38,223 nucleotides of DNA, taken from contig NZ_JAKRMS010000024.1 in the NCBI RefSeq assembly GCF_022346185.1, positions 1 to 38,223 of the forward strand, written 5' to 3'. Positions 15,087 to 27,309 of the stretch are shown in pieces. Source of the stretch: Cellulomonas sp. ACRRI. Lineage in GTDB: Bacteria > Actinomycetota > Actinomycetes > Actinomycetales > Cellulomonadaceae. The notes beneath the pieces are model-generated. The model searched no databases, was not told the origin of the DNA, and worked only from the letters and a program-made list of their open reading frames with translations. The translations under genes were made by a program, and so were the position numbers. Positions within the stretch are counted from its first letter, which is position 1. Each line of letters opens with the position of its first letter.

Positions 15087-15158
15087 CTCCGCCCCCAGGA
15101 TTCGAACCCGGACCTCAAGGCTCCAAAGGCCTGCGTGCTGCCGTTACACCAGGGCGGA
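15087..15158 (-). tRNA. tRNA-Gln (anticodon TTG)
   Basis: The 72-base minus-strand sequence folds as a cloverleaf. The acceptor stem pairs TCCGCCC with GGGCGGA, with discriminator G. The D arm reads TGGTGTAACGGCAGCAC. The anticodon stem CAGGC/GCCTT has one mismatched end pair and a loop CTTTGGA, placing TTG at positions 34-36, which reads CAA/CAG glutamine codons. The T arm has the GGTTCGAATCC core. The CCA end is not encoded. Confidence 0.93.
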
Positions 15159-18899: not shown

Positions 18900-20842
18900 G
18901 CGCCGTCGGGGCGATGGCCCGGTCCGCCGTCCGGGTGCACCGCGGGAGCCTGGCGGGCAGCGCGCTGGTCGTGGGGCTCGCCGCCGCGCTGCTCACGGCC
19001 ACGGGCGTCTGGGTCGAGGCGGGCGTCCGGCTCGCGGCCGGCGCGGCGGACGACCCCGCCGCCTCGATGCTGCTCGCCGTGGCGTCGTCGTTCGCCGGGA
19101 CCGCGGTGCTCATCGCGCTGCTGGTGGTGGCGTCGACGTTCGCGGGGGCGCTCCGCCCGCGGGCCCGGGAGTTCGCGCTGCTGCGCGCGGTCGGCGCGAC
19201 GACGGGGCAGGTGCGGCAGATCGTCACCGCGGAGGTGCTGCTGGTGTTCGCGGTCGCCGCGCCGCTCGGGGCCGTGCCGGGGCTGCTGCTGGCGCCGCTG
19301 CTGTCCGGGGTGCTGGTGTCCGGCGGGGTGGCACCCGCGGGGTACACGCCGCCGCTGACGCCGTGGCCGGTGCTCGGCGCCCTGGCGCTGCTGGTGCCGA
19401 CGGCGCTGCTCGGCGCGCGGCTGGCGGGCCGGGAGAGCGCGCGCCTGAGCCCGGCGAGCGCCGTGCAGCAGGCCGCGGTCGAGCCGCGGGGCATCCCGCG
19501 GGTGCGCGCCGTGACGGCTGCCGTCCTGGTCGCCGCGGGGCTCGTCGCCGCGCTGGTGCCGTTCGTCCTGCCCGGGATCGCGGGCGCCGCGGCCGCGACG
19601 ACCTCGGCGATCGTGCTGCTCATCGCGGCCGCGCTGGTCGGGCCGCTGCTGGTCCGGTGGGGCGCGGAGCGCGGGCTGCGGCTCACCCGCGGGTCCCGCG
19701 CCGTGCCCACGCTGGCGCTGACCAACGCCCGCGGGTTCTCCCGGCGGCTCACCGGGGCGGTCCTGCCGCTCGCGCTGCTGCTGGCGCTCGGCACCGTGCA
19801 GTCCGGGGCGAACGCGGCGCTCGTCGACGCGGCGCAGGAGCAGGTGCGCGACGGCGTGGTCGCCGACGTGGTCGCGCAGGACCCCGGTGCGCCCGCCGGG
19901 GTGCCCGAGGACCGGGCCGCGGAGGTCGCCGCGCTGCCCGGGGTCGCTGCCGCCGGCGTGTCCGCCGCGGTGCCCGCGCAGGTCCGGGTCGACGCCGAGG
20001 ACGAGGACCTGCCGTTCCTCGACGGGCTGTCCTGGGAGCCGGCCGCGCTGCGCACGGTGCCCGCCGGGTCGACGCTGCTCGACCCGGGGGTGCGGTCGGG
20101 CTCGCTCGACGACCTGGCCCGCGACGGCACGATCGCGGTGAGCAGCGAGGCCGCGCTCGGCAGCACCGGGCTGGGCGAGCCGGTCGAGGTGCGGGTCGGC
20201 GGGGAGTCCGTGGAGTTGACCGTGGTGGCCGTCTACGACCGCGGGCTCGGTCTGGGCGACTACCTGGTGGGTTCCGGGTCGGCCGTCGCGGCGGGGGCCG
20301 AGGGCGGCGTGCTGCTGGTCCGGGCCGAGGACCCGGCCGCCGCCGGGGACGTGCGTGCGGCCGTCGCCGCGACCGGGCTCGACGTCACCGACCCCGCGGG
20401 CTACGCCCGGACGGTCCGGGACGCGGCGGCGGGGGAGCAGGGGCTGTCGACCGCGCTGCTGCTGGCGCTGCTCGCGTTCGTCGCGGTGGCGGCGGGCAAC
20501 ACGCTGGTGGCCCTCGTCGGCAGCCGGCGCGGGGAGCTCGCGCTGCTGCGCCGCACCGGGGCCACCCGCGCGCAGCTGATCCGGATGGTGGCCGTGGAGT
20601 CGGCGCTGATCACCGGGACCGCGGTCGCCGTCGGCCTGGCCGCGGTGCTGCCCGCGCTGCTCGGCGTCGGGCAGGGACTGCTCGGGGTGCCCGTGCCGGT
20701 GGTCGACGGGCCGGTGCTGGGCGGGCTGGTGGCCGTCGTCGCGCTCATCGGGCTGATGCTGCCGGTCGGGGCGGCGGTGCGCGCGACGCGCCCCGCCGCG
20801 GGCGCGCCCGGCTCCGCCGTGGTGCACCGGGCCCTCGGGTAG
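18896..20842 (+). CDS. FtsX-family ABC permease
   Basis: This 648-residue membrane protein has two FtsX cores. After an N-terminal membrane helix (SALVVGLAAALLTATGVW), the first core reads VASTFAGALRPRAREFALLR with AVGATTGQVRQIVTAEVLL, and further helices follow (residues 60-270). An extracytoplasmic region of about 200 residues (SGANAALVDAAQEQVRDGVV onward) leads to the second core (GNTLVALVGSRRGELALLRR, TGATRAQLIRMVAVESALI) and three final helices. This layout is common in actinobacterial bacitracin/peptide-response exporters of the BceB/MacB kind. The GTG start overlaps the ATPase stop. A 27-bp-arm palindrome eight bases after the stop should terminate transcription. Confidence 0.92.
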   Translation: MSAVGAMARSAVRVHRGSLAGSALVVGLAAALLTATGVWVEAGVRLAAGAADDPAASMLLAVASSFAGTAVLIALLVVASTFAGALRPRAREFALLRAVGATTGQVRQIVTAEVLLVFAVAAPLGAVPGLLLAPLLSGVLVSGGVAPAGYTPPLTPWPVLGALALLVPTALLGARLAGRESARLSPASAVQQAAVEPRGIPRVRAVTAAVLVAAGLVAALVPFVLPGIAGAAAATTSAIVLLIAAALVGPLLVRWGAERGLRLTRGSRAVPTLALTNARGFSRRLTGAVLPLALLLALGTVQSGANAALVDAAQEQVRDGVVADVVAQDPGAPAGVPEDRAAEVAALPGVAAAGVSAAVPAQVRVDAEDEDLPFLDGLSWEPAALRTVPAGSTLLDPGVRSGSLDDLARDGTIAVSSEAALGSTGLGEPVEVRVGGESVELTVVAVYDRGLGLGDYLVGSGSAVAAGAEGGVLLVRAEDPAAAGDVRAAVAATGLDVTDPAGYARTVRDAAAGEQGLSTALLLALLAFVAVAAGNTLVALVGSRRGELALLRRTGATRAQLIRMVAVESALITGTAVAVGLAAVLPALLGVGQGLLGVPVPVVDGPVLGGLVAVVALIGLMLPVGAAVRATRPAAGAPGSAVVHRALG

Positions 20843-20849
20843 CCCGCGG

Positions 20850-20904
20850 GAGTGGAAGGTCTGGCCGGACACGCCCCGGGCGTGTCCGGCCAGACCTTCC
20901 ACTC
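20850..20904. terminator. 55-bp near-perfect palindrome, two-way terminator
   Basis: Twenty-seven-base perfect arms meet around a single central base. The arms begin GAGTGGAAGGTCTGG and the right arm ends CAGACCTTCCACTC. It lies exactly between the convergent FtsX-like gene and ptsI. The short central loop would need to open in RNA, and the length exceeds that of normal terminators. Confidence 0.7.
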
Positions 20905-20919
20905 GTCGGTGGGAGCGGG

Positions 20920-22656
20920 TCAGCCCTCGCCGAGGAGGACCCGCGCCACGTCGGCGTCCAGGCCGGCGCGGACCGCCGCCCGGGCCGACGCCGCGTCCGG
21001 GGCGGCCAGCGCGGCGGCGGCCAGCGACCGGCAGGCGTCCAGGGTCAGGGACCGCAGCGCGTACCGGGCGGCGGGCACCCGGCCGGCCGCCATCGACAGG
21101 CTGGTGATGCCGAGCCCCGCGAGCACGAGCGCCATCAGCGGGTCGGAGGCCGACTCCCCGCACACGCCCACGGGCTTGCCGACACGCACGCCGGCCGCCG
21201 CGGTCGCCGCCACCAGGGACAGCACCGCCGGCTGCCACGGGTCGAGCAGGTCGGCGAGCTCGCCGCGCAGCCGGTCGGCGGCCATCGTGTACTGCGCGAG
21301 GTCGTTGGTGCCCAGGGACACGAAGTCGACCTCGGCCAGGATCGCCTCGGCCAGCAGCGCGGCCGCGGGGACCTCGACCATGACGCCGACCTTGACGATG
21401 CCCACCTCGCGCGCGGCCGCCGCGAACGCCCGGGCCTCGGCGGGGGTCGCGATCATCGGGGCCATCACCCAGACGTCGGCCTGCCGCTCGGCCGGCAGCG
21501 CGCGGACGGCCGCGCCCAGCGCCTCGAGCTGCCGGGACACGATGCCCGGCAGCGACCGGACCAGCCGGTAGCCGCGGACGCCGAGCGCCGGGTTCTCCTC
21601 GTCGGCCTGGGTGGCGAACGCCAGCGGCTTGTCGGCCCCCGCGTCGAGCGTGCGGATGACGACCTTGCGGCCGGCGTACGCCTCGATCACCTCGGCGTAG
21701 GCCGCGGTCTGGTCCGCGACGGCCGGCTCGGTGCGCGCGTCGAGGAACAGCACCTCGGTGCGGAACAGGCCCACGCCCTCGGTGCCCGCCGCGGCGGCGC
21801 GGGCGTCGGCGGGGGTGCCGACGTTGGCCAGCAGGGGAACCGGGTGGCCGTCCGCGGTGGCACCCGGGCCGACCACGGCCGCGACCAGGCGCTCGTCGTC
21901 GGCGCGGCGGGCCACCCGCTCGGCGGCCTCGGCGGACGGCGACACCTCGACGGTGCCGGCCGCCGCGTCCACCAGGACGGGCGTGCCGGCGGCGAGCGTC
22001 GTGGCGCCCGGGACGCGCACGACGCACGGCAGGCCGAGCTGGCCCGCGACGATCGCCGTGTGGCTGGTCGGGCCGCCGAGCTCCGTGACGATGGCCGCGA
22101 CCTTCGACAGGTCGAGCGCGGCGGTGTCGGCGGGGGACAGGTCGTCCGCGACGACGACGGCCGGGGCGTCCAGCGCGGCGAGGCCGGGCTCCGGGACGCC
22201 GAGCAGCCGGGCGACCGCGCGGTGCCGGACGCTGCGCAGGTCAGTGGCGCGCTCGGCGAGGTCACCGCCGGCGGCGGTGAACACCGCGGCGAAGCCCTCG
22301 ACGGCCTGGTCGACCGCGGTCGCCGGGCCGGTGCCCGCGTGCACCAGGCGCGCGGCCTCGGCTGCGAGCGCCGGGTCGCCGGCCATCGTGGCGGCGGCCT
22401 CGAGCATCTGCCGCAGGTCGGCGTTCGCGGTCGCGGCGGCGCGGGCGCGCAGGTCGTCGCCGACCTCGGCGAGCACGCCGCGGACCCGGGCCTCCCCCTC
22501 GGCCGCGTCCGCGGCGGCGGGCTCGTCGGCGGGGACGGCGGGCGGGGCGGCGACCAGGGCGACGGGGGCCAGCGCGACGCCGCGCCCCACGCCGATCCCG
22601 GCCAGCACGGTCCCGGCGGCGGGCGCCCCGGCCGGGGACGCGTCGAGGGTGGTCAC
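20920..22656 (-). CDS. ptsI: Phosphoenolpyruvate-protein phosphotransferase (PTS enzyme I)
   Basis: Enzyme I takes phosphate from phosphoenolpyruvate and passes it to HPr in the cytoplasm. The 578-residue protein shows the full set: an N-terminal HPr-binding domain (residues 20-150), the phospho-His loop GGPTSHTAIVAGQLGLPCVV with His near residue 198, the TIM-barrel segments LFRTEVLF, RTLDAGADKPLAF, LVRSLPGIVSRQLEA, VGVMVEVPAAALLAEAI, VDFVSLGTNDLAQYTMAADR, and the catalytic Cys in VGVCGESASDPL. The GTG start overlaps the HPr stop (GTGA), and GGAGC sits upstream. It is co-transcribed with ptsH from the RAT-controlled promoter at 23066-23095. Length is normal for the family (about 560-575). Confidence 0.96.
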   Translation of the reverse strand: MTTLDASPAGAPAAGTVLAGIGVGRGVALAPVALVAAPPAVPADEPAAADAAEGEARVRGVLAEVGDDLRARAAATANADLRQMLEAAATMAGDPALAAEAARLVHAGTGPATAVDQAVEGFAAVFTAAGGDLAERATDLRSVRHRAVARLLGVPEPGLAALDAPAVVVADDLSPADTAALDLSKVAAIVTELGGPTSHTAIVAGQLGLPCVVRVPGATTLAAGTPVLVDAAAGTVEVSPSAEAAERVARRADDERLVAAVVGPGATADGHPVPLLANVGTPADARAAAAGTEGVGLFRTEVLFLDARTEPAVADQTAAYAEVIEAYAGRKVVIRTLDAGADKPLAFATQADEENPALGVRGYRLVRSLPGIVSRQLEALGAAVRALPAERQADVWVMAPMIATPAEARAFAAAAREVGIVKVGVMVEVPAAALLAEAILAEVDFVSLGTNDLAQYTMAADRLRGELADLLDPWQPAVLSLVAATAAAGVRVGKPVGVCGESASDPLMALVLAGLGITSLSMAAGRVPAARYALRSLTLDACRSLAAAALAAPDAASARAAVRAGLDADVARVLLGEG

Positions 22657-22931
22657 GCCTGCTCCACGAGGTCCAGGTCGCTCTCCAGCAGGGCGGCCAG
22701 CTCGTCCAGCAGGGCCTCGGCGTCGTCGGACGCGGAGCTCAGCTCGACCTGGTCGCCGTGCTGGAGGCGCAGGCCCATGACCGACAGGATGCTCGAGGCG
22801 TCCACGCCGGGCTCGCCCTCGCGGCCGATCAGGACGGGGTGGCCGCCCTCGGCGGCCTTGCGGGTGACCAGCGACGCCGGGCGGGCGTGCAGGCCGGTGG
22901 CGGTGGCGACTCGTGCTCGACGTCGAGGCAT
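22653..22931 (-). CDS. ptsH: Phosphocarrier protein HPr
   Basis: HPr relays phosphate from enzyme I to sugar-specific PTS enzymes II. The 92-residue protein has the active-site His15 in ATATGLHARPASL and the conserved regulatory-site region DASSILSVMGL, with a Ser (residue 47) at the place phosphorylated by HPr kinase in Firmicutes; no such kinase gene is seen here. The C-terminus LLESDLDLVEQA is ordinary. The ATG is preceded by AAGGGA. It leads an operon with ptsI (four-base overlap). A 125-base leader with an antiterminator and terminator lies upstream, so its expression is likely to depend on an RNA-binding antiterminator. Confidence 0.95.
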   Translation of the reverse strand: MPRRRARVATATGLHARPASLVTRKAAEGGHPVLIGREGEPGVDASSILSVMGLRLQHGDQVELSSASDDAEALLDELAALLESDLDLVEQA

Positions 22932-22985
22932 CGGAACTTCCCTTCTCGTCGCACCGGCCGGCGTCGGACGGCGCGCCAGGGCAAC

Positions 22986-23030
22986 AAAAAAGACCTGAGG
23001 CGTCCGACGCTCGCCGGTGCCTCAGGTCTT
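22986..23030 (-). terminator. ptsH: Intrinsic terminator in the ptsH leader
   Basis: On the minus strand AAGACCTGAGGC pairs with GCCTCAGGTCTT across a 17-base loop, and the stem runs directly into a six-T tract and TTGTTG. It is the only classical T-tract terminator in the window and it lies inside the leader, about 55 bases before the ptsH start. Its 5' arm shares six bases with the RAT element, so the two structures exclude each other. Confidence 0.88.
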
Positions 23031-23054
23031 GCCTGAACCGCTCAGTAACAACCC
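23025..23054 (-). promoter_or_regulatory. ptsH: Ribonucleic antiterminator (RAT) of BglG/LicT/GlcT type
   Basis: The minus-strand 30-mer reads GGGTTGTTACTGAGCGG then TTCAGGCAAGACC. It follows the RAT consensus closely (GGnTTGTTACTG ... CAGGCAAGACC, as in Bacillus sacB). It folds as GG/CC, TTG/CAA and CTGA/TCAG stems, separated by the two asymmetric internal loops G/GA and TTA/G, with a five-base apical loop. Its last six bases are the start of the terminator stem. When bound and stabilised by a phosphorylation-controlled antiterminator protein, it would prevent termination and permit ptsH-ptsI expression. No antiterminator gene occurs in the window. Confidence 0.88.
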
Positions 23055-23065
23055 TGGTGCCGTCA

Positions 23066-23095
23066 GTTGTACGGGGGCGGCGGGCGCGACGTCAA
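23066..23095 (-). promoter_or_regulatory. ptsH: Promoter of ptsH-ptsI
   Basis: On the minus strand TTGACG (23090-23095), an 18-base spacer and TACAAC (23066-23071) form one of the best vegetative promoters in the window. Predicted initiation near 23059 would place the RAT within the first 5-10 transcribed bases, the usual position. Confidence 0.75.
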
Positions 23096-23130
23096 ACGCC
23101 GCCCGCCGCGCCCCGGCGGACGGGCCCGCC

Positions 23131-23568
23131 TCACCCCACGAAGATGCAGAACGGGTGGCCCGCCGGGTCGGCGAACACGTACAGGGGCTCGTCGGGGTCG
23201 TCGCGGCGGTCGAGGAGCAGGCGCGCCCCGAGGCCCTCCGCCCGGGCGCGCTGCGCGTCGAGCGTCGCGGTGTCGGGCACCGTCATGTCCAGGTGCAGCT
23301 GCTGCGGCACCGCCGGGTCCGGCCACGTCGGCGGCGTGATCTCCGGCACCTTCTGGAACGCCAGCGGCCACAGCCCGTCGCCCCGCAGGACCAGCCAGTC
23401 GTCGCCCTCCGGGTCCGGCTCACCGGGGGCGGGCGGCTCGTCGCCCGGGCGGTACTCCATGCCCAGCAGCGCGCGGTAGAACTCCGCGAGCCCCCGGGGA
23501 TCGGTGGTGTCCAGCACCGTCTGCACGACCCGGGGCCGTGCGGCGCCGGGGGCGGTCGCGTCCGTCAT
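23131..23568 (-). CDS. VOC-family (glyoxalase/bleomycin-resistance-like) protein
   Basis: This 145-residue protein has the paired beta-alpha-beta-beta-beta modules of the vicinal oxygen chelate fold. Module one runs from VVQTVLDTTDPRGLAEFYRA (LLGMEYRPG follows) and module two from QQLHLDMTVPDTATLDAQRA to DEPLYVFADPAGHPFCIFVG. Possible metal ligands are the His of QLHLD and a late acidic residue. Proteins of this type often are glyoxalase-like or antibiotic-binding, but sequence alone does not say whether this one is catalytic. The ATG at 23568 is preceded by AGGAG; an ATG 60 bases upstream lacks support. It is divergent from glmU and upstream of the ptsH promoter. Confidence 0.88.
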   Translation of the reverse strand: MTDATAPGAARPRVVQTVLDTTDPRGLAEFYRALLGMEYRPGDEPPAPGEPDPEGDDWLVLRGDGLWPLAFQKVPEITPPTWPDPAVPQQLHLDMTVPDTATLDAQRARAEGLGARLLLDRRDDPDEPLYVFADPAGHPFCIFVG

Positions 23569-23673
23569 GGCGGCTCTCCTCGCGGGGACCGGCGGGCGCC
23601 CCGCCGGCGCCCGCGCCGGTCCCATCATGGTGCCGCCCGACCGGACCCGCGACGGCGGGCTCCCCGGCGGCGG

Positions 23674-23679
23674 TAGAGT
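23674..23679 (+). promoter_or_regulatory. glmU: -10 hexamer of a probable glmU promoter
   Basis: TAGAGT fits TANNNT and lies 75 bases before the GTG start. The -35 region is not clear. It serves the glmU-prs transcript. Confidence 0.4.
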
Positions 23680-23754
23680 GCGTCAGCGCACGACGTCCCC
23701 GCCCGGCTCGCCCGTAGGGCGCGCGGGCAGACCTCTCACAGGGAGCACCCACAG

Positions 23755-25422
23755 GTGACCACCCCCCGCCCCGCCGCGGTCATCGTCCTCGCCGCAGGCG
23801 AGGGCACGCGGATGCGATCCGCCACCCCCAAGGTCCTGCACACCCTCGCCGGCCGGTCCATGCTCGGGCACGCGCTCGCGGCAGCCCAGGCCGTCGAGCC
23901 GCGGCGCACCGCGGTCGTGGTCCGGCACGAGCGCGAGGCCGTCGCGGCCCACGCCCGCGAGCTCATGCCGCAGGTGCTGGTGGCCGACCAGGACGACGTG
24001 CCGGGCACCGGCCGCGCCGTGCAGTGCGCGCTGTCCGTCCTGGACGCCGCCGCGCAGGCCGAGGCCGCGTCGGCCGGCGACCGGCCGGGGGAGGCCGGCT
24101 CGGTCTCCGGCGTGCTGGTCGAGGGTCCCGTGGTGGTGCTCGCCGGCGACATCCCGCTGCTCGACGGCGAGACCCTGGGCGAGCTGCTCGCCGCGCACGC
24201 CGCCGACGGCAACGCCGTCACCGTGCTGACCACCGAGGTCGCGGACCCCACGGGCTACGGCCGCATCCTGCGGGCCGGCCCCGACGCCCCGGACGCCGGA
24301 GACGTCCTCGGCATCGTGGAGGAGAAGGACGCCACCGACGCCCAGCGCGCGATCGCCGAGATCAACTCCTCGGTCTACGTCTTCGACGCCGCCGTGCTGC
24401 GCGGCGCGTTCGGCCGGCTCGGCCGCGACAACGCGCAGGGCGAGGTCTACCTGACCGACGTGGTGGCGATCGCCCGCGGCGACGGCGGCCGGGTGCGGGC
24501 CCTGCGCACCGACGACCCGGTGCTCGTCGAGGGCGTCAACGACCGCGCCCAGCTCGCGGTGCTCCGCGCCGAGCTCAACCGCCGGGTGCTCGACGGCTGG
24601 ATGCGCGCGGGCGTGACCGTGGTGGACCCCGCGACCACCTGGGTGGACGTCGACGTCGAGCTCGCGCAGGACGTGACGCTGCTGCCCGGCACCCAGCTGC
24701 TCGGCGCGACCTCGGTGGCGACCGGCGCCACGATCGGCCCGGACACCACGCTGCAGGACGTCGAGGTCCACGAGGGCGCCACGGTGATCCGGACGCACGG
24801 CTCGCTGGCCGTCGTCGGCGCCGGCGCCACCGTCGGGCCGTTCGCCTACCTGCGCCCCGGCACCGTGCTCGGCGAGCGCGGCAAGATCGGCACGTTCGTG
24901 GAGACCAAGAACGCGGAGATCGGCGCCGGGTCCAAGGTGCCGCACCTGTCGTACGTGGGCGACGCGACGATCGGCGTGGAGACGAACATCGGGGCGGCCT
25001 CGGTGTTCGTCAACTACGACGGCGTCCGCAAGCACCGCACGACGATCGGCTCGTACGCCCGGACCGGCTCGGACAACATGTTCGTCGCCCCGGTGTCCGT
25101 CGGCGACGGCGCCTACACCGGTGCCGGCAGCGTGATCCGGCACGACGTCCCGCCGGGCGCGCTCGCCGTGAGCGCGGGCGCCCAGCGCAACATCGAGGGC
25201 TGGGTCGCCCGCTCCCGCCCGGGCACCCCCGCGGCCGACGCCGCCGCCCGCGCCCGCGGCGACGACGCCGAGCTCTCGCCCCAGGCGCGCGCCGAGCGCG
25301 AGCGCGCCGGCCAGGCCGCCGGCCCCGCCGCCGGCGTGCACCGCACGCCACCCCCGACCCTGCCGGACCACCCGGTCCCGCTGCCCGACGCCCAGCCCAG
25401 CACGGAGGACACCGCACGATGA
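23755..25422 (+). CDS. glmU: Bifunctional UDP-GlcNAc pyrophosphorylase / glucosamine-1-phosphate acetyltransferase
   Basis: GlmU acetylates glucosamine-1-phosphate and then makes UDP-GlcNAc, precursor of peptidoglycan and of surface polysaccharides. The 555-residue protein has an N-terminal nucleotidyltransferase domain with [41 protein letters not shown] and IVEEKDAT. A left-handed beta-helix of hexapeptide repeats ([14 protein letters not shown] to [13 protein letters not shown]) forms the acetyltransferase, with [15 protein letters not shown] and GTNF-like active-site segments [16 protein letters not shown]. About 70 C-terminal residues beyond the helix are a disordered Ala/Pro/Arg tail, as in other actinobacterial GlmU. 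GTG is the start; GGGAGC lies upstream. It is followed by prs with an ATGA overlap, the usual actinobacterial order. Confidence 0.96.
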
Positions 25423-26402
25423 CCGGGATCGTCTCGCAGGACGGTGAGAAGCGGCTCGTCCTGGTCTCGGGCCGCGCGCACCCCGAGCTCGCCGCCGCCG
25501 TGGCCAAGAGCCTCGACATCGACCTCCTGCCCACCACGGCGTACGACTTCGCGAACGGCGAGATCTACGTGCGGTTCGCGGAGTCCGTGCGCGGCGCCGA
25601 CGTGTTCGTGCTGCAGAGCCACGCCGCGCCGATCAACCAGTGGCTGATGGAGCAGTTCCTCATGGTCGACGCGCTCAAGCGCGCCTCGGCCAAGACCATC
25701 ACCGTGATCGCGCCGTTCTACGGCTACGCCCGGCAGGACAAGAAGCACCGCGGTCGCGAGCCGATCTCGGCCCGCCTCATGGCGGACCTGTTCAAGACGG
25801 CGGGCGCGGACCGCCTGATGAGCGTCGACCTGCACGCCGCGCAGATCCAGGGCTTCTTCGACGGCCCGGTGGACCACCTGTGGGCCATGCCGATCCTCAC
25901 CGAGTACGTGCGGACGCGCGTCGACGTGCAGAACGTCACCGTCGTGTCCCCGGACGCCGGCCGCATCCGCGTCGCCGAGCTGTGGGCGCAGAAGCTCGGC
26001 GGCGGCCCGCTCGCCTTCGTGCACAAGTCGCGCGACATCCGGCAGCCGAACAAGACGGTCGCCAACCGCGTCGTCGGCGACGTCGAGGGCCGCACCTGCG
26101 TGCTGGTCGACGACCTCATCGACACCGCGGGCACCATCACGGGCGCCGTGCGCGTCCTGAAGGAGGCCGGCGCCAAGGACGTCATCGTCGCGGCGACGCA
26201 CGGCGTGCTCTCCGACCCGGCCACCGACCGCCTGCAGCAGTGCGGGGCCCGCGAGGTGATCATCACGGACACGCTGCCGATCCCGGACGAGCGCCGGTTC
26301 GACGGCCTCACGGTCCTGTCGATCGCGCCGCTCATCGCGCGCGCCATCCGCGAGGTGTTCGACGACGGCTCGGTGACCAGCCTGTTCGACGGCCAGTCCT
26401 GA
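25419..26402 (+). CDS. prs: Ribose-phosphate pyrophosphokinase (PRPP synthetase)
   Basis: Prs converts ribose-5-phosphate and ATP to PRPP for nucleotide, histidine, tryptophan and NAD synthesis. At 327 residues it is a standard class I enzyme: [20 protein letters not shown], the ATP-binding flexible loop region [40 protein letters not shown], and the PRPP-binding loop [16 protein letters not shown]. The C-terminus has [21 protein letters not shown], also typical. The ATG overlaps the glmU stop by four bases, so the two are coupled. A hairpin 33 bases after the stop likely ends the transcript. Confidence 0.97.
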
Positions 26403-26434
26403 CCCGTCGCGCGCCGGCCACCGCCGCGCGACGT

Positions 26435-26474
26435 CCGAGGCCCGCTCGCCCCGCGCCGGGGGAGCGGGCCTCGG
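26435..26474 (+). terminator. prs: Hairpin terminator after prs
   Basis: Thirteen-base perfect arms CCGAGGCCCGCTC (26435-26447) and its complement (26462-26474) enclose a 14-base GC-rich loop. No T-tract follows. The rest of the 307-base gap to rplY holds the promoter and leader described separately. Confidence 0.7.
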
Positions 26475-26542
26475 CGCGTCCGGGGGCGTGCGCGGGGCGC
26501 GGGGTGCTGCCGGCCCGGTTTCGTGCGGGGCGCGTGCCCGGG

Positions 26543-26548
26543 TAAGAT
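26543..26548 (+). promoter_or_regulatory. rplY: -10 hexamer of the rplY promoter
   Basis: TAAGAT is a close match to TATAAT and is preceded by GG; the -35 region (around 26519-26524, TTTCGT) is poor. Transcription from here would give a leader of about 155 bases. Confidence 0.55.
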
Positions 26549-26709
26549 CGACCAGTTGCCTCGGCGAGGGATGTCGGACGGTCACCGGAGAGACCCGGGT
26601 CCGCCGGTCCGTGATCGACAGGGTGGAACGCCTCCGCGTGCCCGTCCCGCGCCCCGCGTCGAGGCCACCACCGCTCGCCATCGCCCTTCTCAGCGCCCCA
26701 GGAGTCACC
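26549..26709 (+). promoter_or_regulatory. rplY: Long untranslated leader of rplY, possibly structured
   Basis: About 155 bases separate the -10 hexamer from the GTG start without a convincing small gene. TGTCG (26572-26576) can pair with CGACA (26616-26620) around a region that can fold further (GACGG with CCGGTC; GACCC with GGGTC). The heptamer GATCGAC occurs at 26546 and 26613. Ribosomal-protein leaders often bind their own product, so autoregulation is conceivable, but the fold is a guess. Confidence 0.35.
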
Positions 26710-27309
26710 GTGTCCGAGATCAAGCTCGCCGCCACCGCCCGCACCGAGTTCGGCAAGGGCGCCGCGCGCCGCCTGCGCCGTGCGCACCAGATCCCCGCCG
26801 TCCTGTACGGGCACGGCACCGAGCCGGTGCACGTCGCCCTGCCGGGCCACGAGACGATGCTCGCGGTCAAGGGCGCGGCGAACGCGCTGTTCGAGATCCA
26901 GCTCGACGGCAAGCCGGTCCTGGCCCTGGCCAAGGACGTCCAGCGCGACCCGGTCAAGAACGTCATCGAGCACGTCGACCTGCTGATCGTCCGCCGCGGC
27001 GAGAAGGTCACCGTCGAGGTGCCCGTGACGGTCGTGGGCGAGTCGGCCCCCGGCACCATCCACATCGTCGAGACCCAGACGCTGACCCTCGAGGCCGAGG
27101 CCACGCACCTGCCCGAGCACGTCGAGGTCTCCATCGAGGGCCTCGAGGCCGGCACCGCGCTGACCGCCGGCGAGCTGACCCTGCCGAAGGGCTCCGTGCT
27201 CGAGGGCGACGCCGAGCAGGTCATCGTGACCGTCACGGTCCCGAGCGTCTCCGCCGAGGACCGCGCCGCGGACGAGGCCGAGGCCGCCGAGGCCGCTGCC
27301 GCGGAGTGA
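26710..27309 (+). CDS. rplY: 50S ribosomal protein L25/general stress protein Ctc
   Basis: The 199-residue protein is the long, two-domain (Ctc/TL5) form of L25 that binds 5S rRNA. The N-terminal L25 domain (residues 1-92) has TARTEFGKGAARRLRRAHQI, PAVLYGHGTEPVHV, LDGKPVLALAKDVQRDPVK and IEHVDLLIVRRGEKV. The C-terminal TL5 domain has the typical TIHIVETQTLTLEAEATHLP and SIEGLEAGTALTAGELTLPK, followed by an acidic Ala/Glu tail. GTG at 26710 is preceded by GGAG with four-base spacing. It is followed by a hairpin and then pth, the usual actinobacterial neighbour. Confidence 0.95.
   Translation: MSEIKLAATARTEFGKGAARRLRRAHQIPAVLYGHGTEPVHVALPGHETMLAVKGAANALFEIQLDGKPVLALAKDVQRDPVKNVIEHVDLLIVRRGEKVTVEVPVTVVGESAPGTIHIVETQTLTLEAEATHLPEHVEVSIEGLEAGTALTAGELTLPKGSVLEGDAEQVIVTVTVPSVSAEDRAADEAEAAEAAAAE

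Follow-up and report, generated by a model that had tools for sequence, protein, structure and literature searches.

A predicted RAT antitermination switch in the leader of a ptsH-ptsI operon in Cellulomonas

Background

In Bacillus subtilis, a ribonucleic antiterminator (RAT) overlaps a terminator before ptsG, glcT lies adjacent, and EII-phosphate acting on PRD1 inactivates GlcT (PMC12445079, available part). According to the same part of this source, GlcT-dependent read-through affects ptsHI relatively little, and ptsHI has a strong promoter of its own. In LicT, phosphorylation by HPr-phosphate makes the active dimer possible (PMC1489936, as far as accessible). In Enterococcus faecalis, a RAT overlapping a terminator was found with a covariance model, and binding by NagY was shown (accessible sections of PMC9981650). 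In Corynebacterium glutamicum, ptsI and ptsH are under the DeoR-type repressor SugR, and the BglG-family gene of strain ATCC 13032 is a pseudogene (PMC2222622, in the portion available).

We recognised no description of a RAT before an actinobacterial ptsH in the open-access literature, judged by titles and the openings of abstracts. Here we analyse the leader of such a gene in a 38,223-nucleotide stretch of DNA from Cellulomonas sp. ACRRI, which we call the window. The best explanation of this leader is a BglG/LicT/GlcT-type switch in which a protein controls transcription antitermination, to which we assign a probability of roughly 0.87 based on sequence analysis.

Results

The leader of ptsHI lies on the minus strand and consists of a promoter, a RAT and a terminator, all of which a preliminary description of this DNA had placed correctly to the base. 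The sigma-70-type promoter (TTGACG-18-TACAAC, 23066-23095) is an exact match to the pattern used, and this pattern matches only once within the window. The RAT (23025-23054, core GGGTTGTTACTGAGCGGTTCAGGCAAGACC) is a hairpin with two asymmetric internal loops. The intrinsic terminator (22986-23030, AAGACCTGAGGC...GCCTCAGGTCTTTTTT) has a 12-bp lower stem and six T, which are the only run of at least five T on either strand of the window. The 3′ side of the RAT and the 5′ arm of the terminator have six bases in common (23025-23030), as had also been proposed, and the arrangement is mutually exclusive.

The terminator stretch folds with -29.7 kcal/mol, and none of 200 shuffled sequences reached this value (z -5.7). 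On its own, the RAT stretch has a folding energy of -15.0 kcal/mol, and 26 of 200 shuffles were as good. This unexceptional energy is unsurprising, because an element of the RAT type is stabilised by protein. The hexamer TANNNT is absent from the 54-base stretch between the T run of the terminator and ptsH, so no escape promoter for ptsH is evident. A simple promoter and terminator scan of positions 20000-27000 reported neither the promoter nor the terminator of ptsH, presumably because its fixed hexamer and loop limits make it blind to both.

The first gene, ptsH (22653-22931, minus strand), encodes the phosphocarrier HPr with a GLHARPAS site (PF00381, 65.5 bits; TIGR01003). Its stop codon is overlapped by the start codon of ptsI (20920-22656, minus strand), whose product is an enzyme I with GGPTSH and CGE motifs (PF05524, PF00391, PF02896, TIGR01417). 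Elsewhere in the window, Rfam identifies a tRNA gene (15087-15158, minus strand).

Two covariance models bear on whether the element is a RAT. Model R1 (alignment A1) represents 24 RATs of Cellulomonadaceae, including that of the window and others from the genus, while model R2 (alignment A2) represents 13 RATs, all at positions other than directly before ptsH. R2 gives the RAT site 44.5 bits (E 1.1e-9) and the next best site in the window 9.2 bits, so that the previously noted match of 30 bases to the RAT consensus is supported by a model that contains no RAT directly before ptsH. R1, of which the window sequence is a part, scores the same RAT at 50.8 bits. Applied to the bgl region of E. coli K-12 (8 kb), R1 found two strong sites (39.0 and 37.9 bits; the next has 7.0), one upstream of bglG and one between bglG and bglF, which we take to be the proven bgl RATs.

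A strict gapped RAT pattern matched in 19 of the 81 genomes of the genus, and a reversed control pattern in none of them. Searches of Rfam at the gathering score, and also with E-values up to 1, returned no match to a RAT family. We rejected a pattern with a fixed 8-base loop, which matched in 2 of 150 family genomes and missed the window RAT with its 7-base loop, and used the gapped pattern and the covariance models instead.

According to R1, the genome of the window contains five RATs, every one at a PTS operon. Besides that of ptsHI, one precedes a second HPr gene and a GH1 6-phospho-beta-glucosidase-family gene at C206, and a divergent one at C206 belongs to EII206-AT206. The fourth RAT is at EII207-AT207 (C207), and the fifth at AT233-EII233-GH1 (C233). 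As the preliminary description had stated, the cognate antiterminator is not encoded locally: the window contains no antiterminator gene. A search of the genome for CAT-RBD/PRD proteins, which that description had advised, found three BglG-type antiterminators with CAT_RBD and PRD domains (AT206, AT207 and AT233), all on other contigs.

Beta-glucoside IIABC is the best family for EII206, EII207 and EII233, although only EII206 scores above the cut-off. For the three antiterminators, the LicT equivalog NF046042 is the best of four matching families, with scores below the curated cut-off of 300 (257.5 for AT206, 190.7 for AT207 and 255.1 for AT233). Scores for the GlcT equivalog NF047357 (196.1, 161 and 187, respectively) are likewise below its cut-off of 320. 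AT206 and AT207 retain four putatively phosphorylatable PRD histidines: H100, H159, H208 and H270 of AT206 and H99, H158, H207 and H270 of AT207 align with the four PRD histidines of LicT. Compared with plasmid records, AT207 matched 277, all with less than 60% identity.

A RAT-like element before AT233 (L036:6375-6403, minus strand, at C233) has no T run longer than 2 in the next 160 bases. The same element occurs in L080 (6266-6294, minus strand) and L248, likewise without such a run, and another RAT-like kind without a T run longer than 2 precedes EII genes in L067, L069, L070, L071 and L072. These elements are conserved across species and may act by a route other than intrinsic antitermination. 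A short EIIB-like reading frame (L034:8461-8658, plus strand) lies close behind the AT206-type antiterminator gene, and similar frames follow such genes in many genomes, at L073, L074, L079, L082, L083, L084, L131-L136, L142 and L144. Such a frame could encode a dedicated phosphodonor for the antiterminator.

RATs found by R1 are present in 21 of the 81 genomes of the genus, and CAT_RBD in 22. Among the 221 genomes of the family Cellulomonadaceae, 33 have RATs and 34 have a CAT_RBD antiterminator gene, and all 33 are within the 34. With relatedness ignored, the hypergeometric log10 p of this overlap is about -18 for the genus and about -38 for the family; the genomes are related, so the underlying events are not independent. 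Only G205 in the family has CAT_RBD but no R1 match; inspected by eye, its EII gene is preceded by a T-tract hairpin and a degenerate stretch resembling a RAT. Based on a comparison of RAT and HPr gene coordinates, a RAT directly precedes ptsH in all 21 RAT-bearing genomes of the genus and in 27 of the 33 of the family, which answers the preliminary description's call for a pattern or covariance-model search across Cellulomonadaceae.

Other arrangements also occur in the family. In G063, G047 and G092 (L137, L138 and L139), a single cluster behind one RAT has the order EII207-antiterminator (AT207)-ptsI-ptsH. These clusters have a ptsGHI-like arrangement with the antiterminator inside. The HPr gene of G099 is at the end of a RAT-led EII-glycosidase-antiterminator cluster, and for G009 and G067 the segments of roughly 10 kb that were examined showed no ptsH.

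Beyond the family, RAT-EII206-AT206 and RAT-ptsHI form the same divergent pair in Demequina pelophila, Arcanobacterium bovis has RAT-EII207-AT207-HPr-EI, and in Streptomyces sp. S3(2020) a RAT occurs nearly 2 kb before ptsHI. Among the 80 named loci that are nearest in enzyme I, 5 have RATs. A class-wide covariance-model search in 394 genomes, using stricter filters that lose weak matches, matched 11 genomes including that of the window. Seven of the ten other loci are at EII or antiterminator-EII genes, while L094, L096 and L097, possibly chance matches, correspond to none of our PTS queries. No further ptsH RAT is among the ten loci of this sample.

The ptsH RATs exhibit compensatory changes. 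Across 18 distinct ptsH RATs, we count 10 cells with changes on both sides, compared to 2.5 +/- 1.2 in shuffles (0 of 500 as high), and the covariation score is 0.175, compared to 0.080 (0 of 500), although the relatedness of the genomes means that these changes are not independent events. Two weaker measures give less: there are 3 pairs with a change on both sides versus 1.5 (a value reached by 28 of 500 shuffles), and further pair types are less numerous than in the shuffles, 499 of 500 of which reach the observed value. For the 24 mixed RATs, the count of cells with both-side changes is 24 versus 7.0 in shuffles (0 of 500), while both-side-changed pairs (4 versus 2.9; 103 of 500) and pair types (9 versus 8.6; 253 of 500) are unremarkable.

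All compensatory changes are located in the upper stem, where 3 of 4 pairs are changed on both sides in the 18 ptsH RATs, with variants such as CTGA/TCAG, CCGA/TCGG and CCAC/GTGG. Five of the six pairs in the lower stem are invariant and thus test nothing on covariation; the sixth, the A-U flank, fails to pair in 5 of the 18. Relatives keep the RAT and its upper stem compensates, and the genome does encode CAT-RBD proteins, both the opposite of what the preliminary description had named as evidence against its own reading.

We also aligned 11 leaders of the same ptsH type as that of the window. Averaged over all pairs, identity reaches 0.97 for the -35 box, 0.83 for the -10 box and 0.64 for the promoter spacer, 0.96 for the RAT, 0.92 and 0.95 for the two terminator arms and 0.77 for the inner part of the terminator, and only 0.61 for the 54 bases beyond it. 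All 24 distinct ptsH-linked leaders examined, a set that takes in the second HPr of the window genome and Demequina, have an overlapping terminator with a 5′ arm that begins within the RAT. One of these (L079) has an interrupted T run. The pairs of the terminator lower stem are retained across the 24 leaders; pairs 7-12 are variable with pairing mostly kept, and a few breaks occur in pairs 9-12.

These observations suggest the following mechanism. RNA polymerase would start at the promoter (23066-23095), and by default the strong terminator would form and stop transcription before ptsH. In the presence of an inducing sugar of the presumed class, the cognate EII would no longer phosphorylate PRD1 of the antiterminator, and HPr~P would probably also act on PRD2. 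The active CAT-RBD/PRD antiterminator, encoded elsewhere in the genome, would then bind and stabilise the RAT, which uses six bases of the terminator 5′ arm, and ptsH and ptsI would be transcribed. Part of the sugar-uptake machinery (HPr and enzyme I) of this soil actinobacterium and many relatives is thus probably itself turned on by imported sugars. Positive feedback from HPr~P via the antiterminator to ptsHI is plausible.

The preliminary description had such feedback acting on the general proteins of the PTS as a whole, which does not agree with the gene content: the genome has a second enzyme I at C223 (61% identity over 539 residues to that of the window), beside an EII that by eye resembles the fructose type, and two further HPr matches besides the window ptsH. 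As its ptsI is one of two enzyme I genes, the HPr-enzyme I pair in the window looks dedicated to beta-glucosides, and any feedback would act on that pair. The second HPr gene is in an operon with the GH1 6-phospho-beta-glucosidase-family gene that has its own RAT (L034:3333-5198, minus strand). Where L034 has HPr-GH1, the genomes G157, G071 and G202 have ptsH-ptsI-GH1.

As a tentative extension, HPr and enzyme I of Cellulomonadaceae and Demequina might close a double loop as the output of a BglG-type switch: they would phosphorylate, and so activate, the very antiterminator on which their transcription depends, which would make beta-glucoside PTS competence a bistable, sugar-locked state. In G071, a single-contig genome, the only enzyme I N-terminal domain found is that of the RAT-controlled ptsI, so if this idea is true, the whole PTS there would be gated by one RNA switch.

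As to which antiterminator acts on the ptsH RAT, we somewhat favor AT207, which is encoded at C207 with a beta-glucoside-family EII. The window RAT and the EII207 RAT of the same genome agree in the flank, the lower stem and both internal loops (AGGGTTGTTAC...GGCAAGACCTGAG), while the upper stems differ but are each paired (CTGA/TCAG and CCCGC/GCGGG, respectively). G109 encodes a single CAT_RBD protein, which is orthologous to AT207 (82%) and whose operon diverges directly from ptsHI. Of the 11 genomes whose ptsH leaders were aligned, 10 contain an AT207 protein or a RAT of the EII207 type, as listed with an ORF filter that is incomplete and missed several antiterminators. Evidence against AT207 as the unique partner comes from G185, whose ptsH RAT is of this kind but whose only antiterminator is a different one, and from G199 and G194, in which the match of the lower part fails (GGATTG in the EII207 RAT, GGGTTG in the ptsH RAT).

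A less probable version of the same switch has AT206, encoded at C206 with EII206 and the second HPr-glycosidase operon, as the cognate protein, or involves cross-talk between antiterminators. AT206-type genes lie beside a RAT-led ptsH or ptsHI in G157, G071, G177, G203, G155, G102, G202 and Demequina pelophila, and the lone CAT_RBD gene is of this type in G177, G155 and G050; AT206-type proteins must serve ptsH RATs in other genomes. However, the AT206 locus of the window genome already has its own divergent HPr RAT (GGATTGTGACTGA...), and the lower part of the window RAT, GGGTTG, is that of the EII207 RAT in this genome.

The ptsHI operon had been called stand-alone. This is correct for the window and for G166, G187 and G193, in which gloA adjoins ptsH and the neighbouring PTS operon is absent, but not in general, as several relatives have an EII-glycosidase-antiterminator or EII207-antiterminator operon directly beside ptsHI. 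Specifically, an EII-GH1-antiterminator operon lies between ptsH and gloA in G153 (whose HPr is 100% identical to that of the window), G199, G165 and G194, and G210 has another such operon at this position. Either the operon was lost in lineages of the window type or it was gained by the relatives. In both cases, with no antiterminator in the window, ptsHI there would depend on a trans-acting protein.

The close similarity of G153, in which a PTS operon with an antiterminator separates the ptsH RAT from gloA, would fit a scenario where the ptsH RAT of the window is a relic of a lost local PTS operon and its antiterminator, and ptsHI is transcribed by leaky read-through or unexpressed. We consider this improbable, given that the conservation of the promoter, RAT and terminator matches that in relatives having the neighbouring operon, that three CAT_RBD+PRD antiterminators are still in the genome and that G166, G187 and G193 retain the RAT without the operon. 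An ordinary attenuator or bidirectional terminator with a coincidental RAT match is highly improbable: the terminator by itself would serve as a constitutive attenuator, but the E-value of R2 in the window, the two strong E. coli bgl sites of R1 and the CAT_RBD genes in 33 of 33 RAT genomes of the family all argue against coincidence.

Discussion

An antitermination switch in the window would extend RAT control in actinobacteria directly to HPr and enzyme I. It would also predict an inducible, substrate-dedicated phosphorelay with positive feedback. In addition, our models yield a set of RATs with nearby antiterminators with which RNA specificity and cross-talk can be studied in high-GC bacteria.

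The window resembles GlcT/ptsGHI of B. subtilis in its RAT-terminator overlap, in the CAT/PRD antiterminator and in the downstream PTS genes (PMC12445079, available part). Unlike in B. subtilis, the promoter, RAT and terminator directly precede ptsH, the unit has no EII gene and the window has no antiterminator. Because the promoter of ptsH itself lies before the RAT, the arrangement is a variant. The GlcT system, which the preliminary description had cited as a precedent, does represent the same type of switch, but is a weaker precedent than implied, as the Bacillus ptsHI genes largely escape the switch via their own promoter (PMC12445079, same part).

The E. coli bglGFB and the B. subtilis and Streptococcus mutans LicT-bgl systems are similar in RAT sequence and structure, and in having regulators alongside beta-glucoside-family EIIs and GH1 genes. 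They differ in their targets, which are EII or glycosidase genes, whereas the switch in the window would act on an HPr-enzyme I pair. The spacing from promoter to RAT is close to that of S. mutans bglP (PMC1489936, as far as accessible). The NagY system of E. faecalis is that of a Firmicute and consists of a nagY-nagE operon and a lyase gene, unlike the window (accessible sections of PMC9981650).

With C. glutamicum, the window shares actinobacterial ptsH and ptsI genes that are induced by PTS sugars, which we infer in the case of the window. In C. glutamicum strain R, bgl operons are under BglG-type control. The predicted mechanism of the window switch is ordinary, while its target and lineage are new as far as the open-access literature shows.
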